In this document: in pieces, positions 51,121 to 53,800 of the stretch | Layout: each line of letters opens with the position of its first letter | Numbering within the stretch: position 1 is the stretch's first letter | NCBI RefSeq assembly: GCF_010994755.1 | Contig: NZ_WHSB02000007.1 | Coordinates: 62,001 to 126,000, forward strand | Length of the DNA: 64,000 nt | Direction: 5' to 3' | Source: Shinella lacus | GTDB taxonomy: Bacteria > Pseudomonadota > Alphaproteobacteria > Rhizobiales > Rhizobiaceae | Position numbers and translations under genes: made by a program | Notes under the pieces: model-generated | What the model was told of the DNA's origin: nothing | Database searches by the model: none | Seen by the model: the letters and a program-made list of their open reading frames with translations, nothing else

Positions 51121-51570
51121 GTGAGCGAAGTCCTCTTCTACCACCTGACCGAATCGAAGCTCGAGGACGCGCTGCCGCCGCTGCTCGACAAGAGCCTCGA
51201 ACGCGGCTGGCGCGTCGTCGTGCAGACCGGCGACGCGGAGCGCCGCGACGCGCTCGACACGCATCTGTGGACTTTCCGCGAGGACAGTTTCCTACCGCAC
51301 GGCACCGACGAGCAGGCGTTTCCCGCCGAGCAGCCGGTGCTGCTCACCATGACGGCCGACAACGCCAACGCCGCCACCGTGCGCTTCCTCGTCGCCGGCG
51401 CCGAACCGCCGGCGCTCGATCCCTACGACCGCGTCATCTTCATGTTCGATGGCTACGACCAGGCGGAGGTGGAGACCGCGCGCGAGCACTGGAAGCGCCT
51501 GAAGGGCGAGGGTCACCAGCTTACCTATTGGCAGCAGAACAGCGACGGGCGCTGGCAGAAGAAGGCCTGA
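51121..51570 (+). CDS. holC: DNA polymerase III subunit chi
   Basis: 149-residue clamp-loader accessory protein that links DnaX to SSB. It begins VLFYHLTESKLEDALPPLLDKSLERGWRV and has DTHLWTFREDSFLPHG with VIFMFDGYD, the standard alphaproteobacterial HolC pattern. GTG 51121 is supported by GAGGAGAGG immediately upstream. It sits 7 bp after pepA and 15 bp before the DarT-like gene. Confidence 0.94.
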   Translation: MSEVLFYHLTESKLEDALPPLLDKSLERGWRVVVQTGDAERRDALDTHLWTFREDSFLPHGTDEQAFPAEQPVLLTMTADNANAATVRFLVAGAEPPALDPYDRVIFMFDGYDQAEVETAREHWKRLKGEGHQLTYWQQNSDGRWQKKA

Positions 51571-51585
51571 CGGCGTCGGGATAAA

Positions 51586-52797
51586 ATGATGTTGTGGTTT
51601 ATCGCCGGGTTCCTTGTTCTGTGCTGGCTCTGGCACAAAATTTTCGGCGGACGTGCGGACGCCCCGTCAGATACGGAAAAGGACGACGCGTCCGCTGGCG
51701 TCATCATCAGTGGCCGAGGTGTCAGCCGTATGATGAACGAGGTCGGGCGCAGCCTGTCCGGAATCCCCGAGGCGGTAAACCGATTCAATGAAATCGCCGC
51801 GGTGCTGGATGCGCAGGACAAGGAGAAAAAGCGCAAGGAGCAGAGCTCCTTTGGAAAAACCCTGCGCGACAGGCAGCTTGTCATCGGTGCTGTTCGCGAC
51901 ATCGGCAAGCGCGAGCGTAGAATCCGGAAGGAGATGGACACCGATCCTGAATTCGCCAGCTTGTACGAGTCCAACAAGGCCGAACTGGAAACCATACTTG
52001 CTGGACATGCTCCGCCACGGAAAAATCCCGGTCGGGCTGGCCTTGTTCCGGTCCAATACCGGACGTTGCGGTCCTGGTCGATACCGTTTCTCGTGCATTT
52101 CACGCGCGTTTCGAACCTTCCGTCGATCCTGGCAAACGGCATCATGCCGGTGGCGTGGCACGCGAAATCGGGCATTGTCCCCGCCGTGAACGATGTCCAT
52201 AGGTTCGATAGACGAACGAACAGCTCGTCCTTCTCCATCGCCCACCCCAATCACCGCATGCTCTGGAAGTACCGCCAGCTGGATCCAGATGAAGATTGGG
52301 TGATCCTGGCTGTCGATCCAGATGTGATCTGGAAGAAGCAATGCGCTTTTTGCGCGCGCAATGCTGCGGAGAAGAGCATTTCCAGCCGGAGCCTCGGTGA
52401 TCTGACAGGGCGCGCCGCATTCGACAAGATGCTCGGAGTCAACCGGCGCACAGATGCGCTTCCCTACGAACCGGCTGACGATCAGGCAGAGGTCCTGATT
52501 TTCGGCGTTGTCGAACCCGAATTGATTACCGGCGCCTTCTTTCTGAAGGACGAGACTAGAGCAAAACTTGACGGATTGTGCGGCGCACGGGCTACGTTCA
52601 ATGCGGCTGAGAGTGAAGCCTTGTTTTCTTCCCGGTCACATGCAAGACGGCTAACGGGCAACGCTGCGCTGCTGGACGGCTACCAGAAGCTGATGGCGCA
52701 GATCGCGGACGATCTGCGCCAGGACCCGGGGCTTGCGACGTATCTGGACGCGGCGCTCGCGGAAATGCTCGACAACCCGGATATCTATTCCGCCTGA
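51586..52797 (+). CDS. Membrane-anchored DarT-like (DUF4433) ADP-ribosyltransferase, orphan
   Basis: 403 residues. A hydrophobic helix (about 2-19) is followed by a charged, helical, probably coiled-coil region (about 45-140). The DarT domain spans about 165-340: HFTRVSNLPSILANGI (171-186) in the NAD-binding site, HPNHRMLWKYR (220-230), WVILAVDPDVIWKKQCAFC (238-256), and DDQAEVLIFGVVEP (298-311) with likely catalytic Glu302. A helical tail follows. DarT enzymes ADP-ribosylate thymidine in single-stranded DNA and are normally paired with the DarG macrodomain antitoxin; no DarG lies nearby. Two lines counted here are 52-58% G+C against 67% in pepA, hinting at transfer. ATGs at 51586 and 51589 have a weak ribosome site. 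Confidence 0.78.
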   Translation: MMLWFIAGFLVLCWLWHKIFGGRADAPSDTEKDDASAGVIISGRGVSRMMNEVGRSLSGIPEAVNRFNEIAAVLDAQDKEKKRKEQSSFGKTLRDRQLVIGAVRDIGKRERRIRKEMDTDPEFASLYESNKAELETILAGHAPPRKNPGRAGLVPVQYRTLRSWSIPFLVHFTRVSNLPSILANGIMPVAWHAKSGIVPAVNDVHRFDRRTNSSSFSIAHPNHRMLWKYRQLDPDEDWVILAVDPDVIWKKQCAFCARNAAEKSISSRSLGDLTGRAAFDKMLGVNRRTDALPYEPADDQAEVLIFGVVEPELITGAFFLKDETRAKLDGLCGARATFNAAESEALFSSRSHARRLTGNAALLDGYQKLMAQIADDLRQDPGLATYLDAALAEMLDNPDIYSA

Positions 52798-52873
52798 TGT
52801 ATGGGGCAGCGGTTCTCCCTCCGCGCTTGCAGTGTCGAGGTCGCACGGCTCTGGTCTGACGACTTGCTTCATT

Positions 52874-53800
52874 TCAGTCGTGAAACGCCTCGACGAATTT
52901 GCGGCGGCCGAGCATGAAGGCGTCGGCGACGTGGCGGAGCGGCGCGAGGTCGACGTCGGATTTCCCGGCCTTCACGATCTCCGCGAAGCGCTTGTAGAGC
53001 ATCGGATATTCCTGCTCCGGCTCCTCGTGCACCAGCTTGCCGTCGATGGAGAGTTTCGCGCCGCCTTCGGACAGCACCATCTCACCGGCCTCGGTATCGG
53101 CGACGATGTCCCAGCTCTGCTTGCCGGTCTGGCGCCAGTCGAAATCGGCCTTGAGGTCGAGGCCCCTGGCGTCGGAGAAGGTGATCGAAGCGGCGATCGG
53201 CGCGTCGCGGTTTTCCGGGAATTCCAGCGTGGCGGCGGTGATGAAGACCGGGCGCGGCAGGATATGGGTGACGATCGAGAGCGCGTTGATGCCCGGATCG
53301 AAGACGCCGAGGCCGCCGGCCTGCCAGATCCAGTCCTGGTTCGGATGCCAGTGGCGCACGTCTTCCTTCCAGATCACCTGCATCGAGCTGATCGTCGTGC
53401 CGGCAAGGAAGCTCCTTGCTGCTTCGACGGCCGGCGCATAACGCGAATGCCAGCTCGCGAAGAGCGAAACGCCCTTGGCGGCGGCAAGCGCTTCGAGGTC
53501 GGCGACTTCGGAGAGCGTCGCGCCCGGCGGCTTTTCGAGGAAAACATGTTTGCCGGCCGAAAGCGCCTTCTCCGCCGCCTCGTAGCGATATTGCGGCGGC
53601 ATGCAGAGCGAGACGGCATCGATTGCCGGGACGGCCGCCAGCATCTCGTCGATCGACTTGAAATTGTCGATTCCGTCCACCGTGCCGTGGCGGCTTGCAG
53701 CGGCGATCAGCTTGTAATCGCTGTTCTTGGCGACGGCCGGAAGATGCTGGTCGCGCACGATCTTGCCGACGCCGACGATTGCGAGATTGATCGGGGACAT
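52874..53800 (-). CDS. Gfo/Idh/MocA-family sugar dehydrogenase (D-galactose 1-dehydrogenase-like)
   Basis: 308-residue NAD(P)-dependent oxidoreductase. The N-terminal Rossmann motif is AIVGVGKIVRDQHLPA; the family signature GKHVFLEKPPGATL carries the catalytic Lys. Length and NQDWIWQAGGLGVFDPGINALS match aldose 1-dehydrogenases such as rhizobial Gal and Azospirillum L-arabinose dehydrogenase. The exact sugar is unproven. It is divergent from the TRAP genes, which could import its substrate or a related acid. Confidence 0.85.
   Translation of the reverse strand: MSPINLAIVGVGKIVRDQHLPAVAKNSDYKLIAAASRHGTVDGIDNFKSIDEMLAAVPAIDAVSLCMPPQYRYEAAEKALSAGKHVFLEKPPGATLSEVADLEALAAAKGVSLFASWHSRYAPAVEAARSFLAGTTISSMQVIWKEDVRHWHPNQDWIWQAGGLGVFDPGINALSIVTHILPRPVFITAATLEFPENRDAPIAASITFSDARGLDLKADFDWRQTGKQSWDIVADTEAGEMVLSEGGAKLSIDGKLVHEEPEQEYPMLYKRFAEIVKAGKSDVDLAPLRHVADAFMLGRRKFVEAFHD

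Follow-up and report, generated by a model that had tools for sequence, protein, structure and literature searches.

A predicted membrane-anchored DarT1-type ADP-ribosyltransferase of Shinella lacus with no recognised NADAR partner

Introduction

The potent toxins of the DarT family are understood mostly in the context of an antitoxin that reverses their action. Two systems described in PMC11543638 are closest to the locus reported here. DarT1-NADAR (DarTG1) of Escherichia coli C7 (PDB 8baq, 8bar and 8bas) has a NADAR protein as partner. DarT2-DarG (DarTG2), represented by Thermus and Mycobacterium tuberculosis DarT (PDB 7omv and 7yk3), is thymidine-specific and is partnered by the macrodomain protein DarG. 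Alanine at any of R52, D54, M71, N104 and E152 abolishes the toxicity of DarT1 (Schuller et al. 2023, PMC11543638). In the same paper, Phe72 of DarT1 stacks on nicotinamide, being required for efficiency and dispensable for catalysis, and the base is coordinated in DarT2 by a histidine (H119) where DarT1 has N104. Here, we describe a darT1-like gene in a 64,000-nucleotide stretch of Shinella lacus (NCBI RefSeq assembly GCF_010994755.1, contig NZ_WHSB02000007.1, positions 62,001 to 126,000; hereafter the window), for which we recognised neither kind of partner. An initial annotation had read it as an orphan, membrane-anchored DarT, setting it apart from known DarT toxins, which it took to be soluble and DarG-paired. 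An orphan or membrane-anchored DarT1 is not described among the literature titles and abstract openings listed by our search, or in passages of PMC9503650, PMC13092281 and PMC9519451, which is not proof of absence.

Results

The window gene encodes a DarT1-type enzyme

The reading frame opens with ATG ATG, of which the second (51589) may be the real start. The DarT motifs noted earlier are present: HFTRVSNLPSILANGI (from H171), HPNHRMLWKYR, DPDVIWKKQCAFC and QAEVLIFG with E302. Residues 171-332 match the Pfam DarT profile PF14487 (E 3.1e-18, 66.7 bits against a cut-off of 22.5), and a PDB sequence search up to E 10 returned a single match, E. coli C7 DarT1 (8baq, E 1.4e-22), far beyond chance. 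The profile, the PDB match and the structure model with its fold comparison place the protein in the ADP-ribosyltransferase fold of the DarT kind, so that the DarT fold suggested by the initial annotation is supported by structure prediction; families missing from the fold-comparison list were not taken as evidence. Against the NCBIfam equivalog model NF048013 (toxin_DarT) the protein scores 13.9 bits, where 150 are required.

All five essential DarT1 residues are present in the alignment (R52, D54, M71, N104 and E152 correspond to R206, D208, M225, N259 and E302), which agrees with the earlier choice of E302 as the catalytic glutamate. K74, Y75 and Q150 of the E. coli C7 enzyme are likewise retained as K228, Y229 and Q300. 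The DarT2-type histidine is absent, N259 occupying its position. Since the essential DarT1 residues map and asparagine stands in place of the DarT2 histidine, we assign the enzyme to DarT1, and the expected partner is therefore NADAR rather than macrodomain DarG. The Phe72 position holds leucine (L226), as it does in 13/13 members of the clade described below and in 4/31 tabulated NADAR-paired loci; because Phe72 is dispensable for catalysis, we do not regard the exchange as a defining loss. From the intact active site and the predicted fold, we infer that the enzyme would carry out ADP-ribosylation of guanine in single-stranded DNA, dependent on nicotinamide adenine dinucleotide (NAD+).

Beyond the catalytic domain, the protein adds a membrane helix, a helical module and a C-terminal tail to what is found in E. 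coli C7 DarT1. Hydropathy marks an N-terminal segment at residues 1-17 (averaged over 17 residues) or 1-22 (over 15), and the structure model has helices at 2-20, 41-86, 88-119 and 121-139, in keeping with the membrane helix and helical region of the initial annotation. A second hydropathic stretch, within residues 301-320, coincides with two strands of the catalytic fold; it was not counted as a membrane helix. By the positive-inside rule the basic flank of a membrane helix faces the cytoplasm. The basic residues (H, K, R) of the window protein come after helix 2-20, and the catalytic part is therefore predicted to be cytoplasmic, the protein being tethered by one inner-membrane helix. The helical module modelled alone (two sequences) gave a poor result (predicted local distance difference test, pLDDT, 59; predicted template modelling score 0.34), and we make no claim about its fold. 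Matches of the helical region to VirD1 (E 0.073) and of the protein to phrog_14155 (E 0.013) were taken as chance.

The protein belongs to a clade of long-tailed DarT1

Relatives were sought among 5.8 billion protein sequences, about 8,000 candidates being scored per search. The window protein retrieved 6 (itself included) and a Roseovarius member 26; a search with the six-row alignment A1 listed 3, none of them new. In a tree of 58 DarT1 domains the window protein falls in a group of 13 with support 100/100. Left out of the tree were L105 (two fragments), L097 (short frame), L100 (shortened, with an insertion sequence (IS) element behind it), L108 (domain identical to that of L052), L141, L142, the duplicates P0001 and P0007, the second DarT gene of L053 and loci of other residue types.

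All five essential residues are retained in each of the 13 members, and each has 100-122 residues after the catalytic glutamate, against 52-74 in the 29 of 32 paired loci where the tail could be measured (L097, L100 and L105 were counted as paired without a tail length) and 51 and 54 in the unpaired loci L131 and L132. A membrane segment is predicted in 10/13; the sequences of the other three (P0009, P0011 and P0014) start within this region or past it. Over the 15 pairs of six clade members, identity is 45-67% in the catalytic domain, 22-47% in the N-terminal part and 21-48% in the tail.

The full-length form is rare. Alignment A1 over 397 genomes of the order recovered the window only, and alignment A4 recovered Roseovarius confluentis only, both in 394 genomes from the family of Roseovarius and in 84 from the genus itself, with at most four candidates scored per genome in the order-wide and family scans. 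A single-protein contig scan with the window protein gave no match. A phage origin of the clade found no backing: the window protein and a Sulfitobacter member had no match among phage records, nor the clade alignment in viral contigs, where alignment A1 picked up four viral DarT1 loci, all with NADAR. Plasmid copies were also sought, and no plasmid record covered 80% of the query.

NADAR accompanies most DarT1 genes and is missing here

The window assembly comprises 7.04 Mb in 53 contigs (listed as 100% complete, 4.23% contamination). Whole-genome family searches found one DarT and no match to Macro (PF01661), NADAR (PF08719) or NADAR-DarT1 (PF22397); across 14 control genomes the same searches were positive in 1 for DarT, 8 for Macro, 3 for NADAR and 1 for NADAR-DarT1. 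No NADAR gene stands beside darT. The orphan status proposed initially thus holds for a macrodomain partner, DarG not being the decisive one for this enzyme, and extends to NADAR. According to PMC11125620, NADARs of other genetic contexts are inefficient against DarT1, one giving partial rescue, so that a remote NADAR relative would be a poor substitute antitoxin.

We compared 36 DarT1 loci with readable context, a class that we assigned ourselves (Met or Leu at the M71 position with N104, Q150 and E152, or fragments of such). NADAR was called by Pfam in six proteins (PF22397) and otherwise by a profile built from those six. It is present in 32/36 and starts at most 14 nt from the end of darT or overlaps it in 30/31 paired loci, the exception (L100) having an IS element between the two. 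The four loci without NADAR are the window, R. confluentis (L102), L131 and L132. The window and R. confluentis are the only clade members with readable context, and the resulting contrast (absence in 2/2 clade loci against 2/34 other DarT1; Fisher's exact p 0.0095) is indicative only, because the loci are partly non-independent (L052 and L108 have identical domains) and the data had been seen before the clade was defined. Neither NADAR-DarT1 nor NADAR is matched in the R. confluentis genome, where macrodomains were not part of the search.

L131 (4120-5544) has two membrane segments, glutamate at the essential D54 position and no NADAR in its 10.5-kb stretch; its genome has no PF08719 match, PF22397 not having been sought genome-wide there. 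It may be a second, independent unpaired form. In the DarT1 tree, L131 and L132 are each on a long branch whose placement is uncertain.

Loci outside the class were not counted. Nine match the clade profile at 1e-5 and have no NADAR (L078, L079, L080, L099, L133, L134, L135, L136 and L142); each has neither Met nor Leu at the M71 position, or is missing N104 or Q150. With these, all loci matching at 1e-5, the window included, number 45, of which 32 have NADAR. Eight fetched loci (L081-L087 and L093) have neither a profile match nor NADAR. Five more (L088-L092) have NADAR, their DarT falling below the 1e-5 threshold, and would add to the paired side. The DarT-family gene next to NADAR in those five is too divergent for the clade profile, and the loci may represent further paired types. 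One of the nine, L099 (3956-4666), is a DarT-family gene of another residue type on a Skermanella plasmid that also carries genes for a phage terminase and portal; NADAR is absent from the stretch.

Membrane segments also occur on NADAR-paired DarT1

Hydropathy predicts one to three N-terminal membrane segments in nine NADAR-paired DarT1 (L053, L076, L077, L095, L096, L113, L129, L130 and L141), among them one on a Rhizobium leguminosarum plasmid (L095). Solubility of known DarT, which the initial annotation had used as a distinguishing feature, therefore does not single out the window protein. The nine share the N-terminal anchor with the clade and differ in having two or three segments in 8/9 (L096 has one, as does the window protein), 54-74 residues after the catalytic glutamate and an adjacent NADAR. 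The anchor is therefore not unique to the clade, and the C-terminal tail, a feature that the initial annotation did not mention, is the better discriminator between the clade and the paired loci.

The N-terminal parts of 12 clade members were aligned by hhalign to those of 12 other long DarT1 (seven loci, including L131, and five context-unknown proteins, one without a starting membrane segment). The probability was 94 over 156 columns in a one-against-one comparison, whose E-value is not a database E-value, with hydrophobic and helical sequence on both sides. The N-terminal part of the clade is probably homologous to that of long, mostly multi-pass DarT1. The ancestor was likely membrane-anchored and NADAR-paired, the clade having lost NADAR and gained the tail; the tree does not fix this sequence of events.

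The gene occupies a variable slot

The positions of the gene, its parts and its neighbours are given in Table 1. In the window, darT is the sole gene of the interval between holC and the oxidoreductase gene gfo (51571-52873). In 20 other genomes of the genus (L056-L075) this interval never holds darT: it is empty in 4 (45-179 bases) and carries a major facilitator superfamily transporter gene in 9. Fic, DUF2199 and a beta-lactamase-family hydrolase occupy it in 2 genomes each, and the remaining genome has a glyoxalase-fold gene there. Against the four empty sites, homology of the window ends at 51566-51574 and restarts at 52871-52874. A DarT-family gene lies elsewhere in three of the 20; that of G011 (L080) is of another residue type, and the other two (L081 and L086) do not match the clade profile. 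The darT gene has a G+C fraction of 0.583, and 0.693 at third codon positions, where eight neighbouring genes have 0.824-0.900. Both the lower G+C and the acquisition read from it initially are therefore upheld, the latter with the empty sites of relatives: darT was most likely gained at this slot in the window genome, and its movement as a single gene is supported.

Table 1. Features of the darT locus (window positions)
Feature	Position	Strand	Basis
holC (DNA polymerase III chi), left slot border	51121..51570	+	PF04364 5.9e-38
darT1-like gene, 403 aa, predicted membrane-anchored DarT1-type ADP-ribosyltransferase	51586..52797	+	Reading frame, profile, structure model
Predicted membrane helix, residues 2-20	51589..51645	+	Hydropathy; model helix, pLDDT about 70
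Linker, residues 21-40, low model confidence	51646..51705	+	pLDDT <50 for residues 21-50
Helical module, residues 41-139	51706..52002	+	Model; N-terminal parts of further long DarT1 match by profile
DarT1 catalytic domain, residues 156-355	52051..52650	+	
E302 codon, counterpart of catalytic E152 in E. coli C7 DarT1	52489..52491	+	Alignment; residue roles from PMC11543638
C-terminal tail, residues 356-403, predicted helices 361-379 and 383-396	52651..52794	+	Model; exceeds tails of 29 measured paired DarT1 loci
Gfo/Idh/MocA oxidoreductase gene, right slot border	52874..53800	-	PF01408

In R. confluentis, the genes upstream of darT encode an MmeI-like type IIG restriction enzyme, a protein of 214 aa with no match in Pfam, a DEAD helicase, a T5orf172/MUG113 protein, which we take to be GIY-YIG-like, and a 98-aa truncated match to PADLOC PDC-S26, presumably a phage-defence candidate by its name, whose end overlaps the start of darT. 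This neighbourhood, at one locus, supports a defence role.

Discussion

A single-gene, membrane-held DarT1 without NADAR, restrained in cis and triggered by phage, is in our judgement the best explanation as a whole, and we hold it tentatively. The initial annotation had likewise proposed self-restraint, with phage defence or stress sensing as possible roles. One N-terminal helix would hold the enzyme at the inner membrane, facing the cytoplasm, where it would put ADP-ribose from NAD+ on guanine in single-stranded DNA. Restraint in cis would replace the antitoxin, through the helical module, the extra C-terminal tail or both, and possibly through an active site weakened by leucine at the Phe72 position. 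Phage DNA entering or replicating at the membrane, for example, would act as the trigger that lifts this restraint and activates the enzyme. The bolder form of this proposal, that a distinct DarT1 clade has dispensed with its antitoxin and that one tethered polypeptide combines sensor, restraint and DNA-modifying warhead in a one-gene anti-phage system marking phage DNA at the membrane, is possible and more doubtful. An unpaired clade with an intact active site would raise the question of how a cell survives such an enzyme. The window gene is a candidate for an antiviral or stress-response enzyme that works as a single gene; genes of this kind would allow in-cis control, membrane localisation and phage sensing to be dissected together, and would be missed by searches that require an adjacent NADAR or DarG.

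Several points weigh against this proposal. Context is available for just 2/13 clade members, and the Fisher count uses partly dependent loci, a post hoc clade and an author-assigned class. NADAR absence is not rare among DarT relatives at large, given the nine further family loci without it. Membrane segments are found on nine paired DarT1 as well, and the N-terminal part is less conserved than the catalytic domain. No result places the helices or the tail against the active site, and as a source of restraint the leucine is doubtful, Phe72 not being essential in E. coli C7 DarT1 and leucine also occurring in four paired loci. No phage or defence gene adjoins the Shinella darT.

The alternative that survives best, though we consider it rather unlikely, is a normal toxin whose antitoxin, of some other kind, is encoded elsewhere in the genome or is an antisense RNA. 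The described DarT1 and DarT2 are toxins with partners (PMC11543638), and our genome searches covered known hydrolase families only. However, paired loci keep NADAR as closely linked as described above, and no small shared partner protein was recognised when 7.5 kb around the window darT and the R. confluentis darT were compared: apart from darT itself and frames read antisense to it, the comparison gave a single weak match (E 1e-4), which we attribute to chance. Nor does any Rfam family reach its gathering score near the window darT; the sole sub-threshold match there, to a snoRNA, was likewise taken as chance.

A relic is unlikely: under this reading, NADAR was lost from an earlier DarT1-NADAR pair, and the remaining enzyme is tolerated because it is weak or silent. 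Such a reading would suit a lone gene in a slot whose content varies across 21 genomes, the replacement of a residue needed for efficiency, and a simple consensus scan that found no promoter-like site between 51000 and the start of darT. Yet the five essential residues are kept in 13 diverged members, and the long tail is uniform across the clade. A housekeeping or signalling role in place of a toxic or defensive one, with DNA at the replisome or some other guanine-containing molecule as substrate and a tie, for instance, to holC expression, is improbable: darT lies 15 nt behind holC in the same direction and DarT of M. tuberculosis reportedly coordinates growth (PMC12170906), but the slot lacks darT in the other 20 genus genomes and the Roseovarius relative has defence-like neighbours, among which holC was not recognised. 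Most improbable is an exported or injected antibacterial effector with the N-terminal hydrophobic helix and long helical region as delivery signal, given that the basic residues behind the helix point to a cytoplasmic enzyme, that NADAR-paired DarT1 have comparable anchors and that, darT being the sole gene between holC and gfo, no immunity or secretion gene is adjacent.

Other arrangements of DarT1 genes

Three loci depart from the simple pair in other ways. On a viral contig (L053, 1576-3982), DarT1, NADAR and a second, different DarT-family gene follow in a row. On two Deinococcus plasmids (L101, 2042-4582; L100, 3305-6828), the DarT1 domain ends a long protein downstream of an N-6 methylase gene, and in L100 the element that separates the shortened DarT1 gene from NADAR is of the IS3 type.
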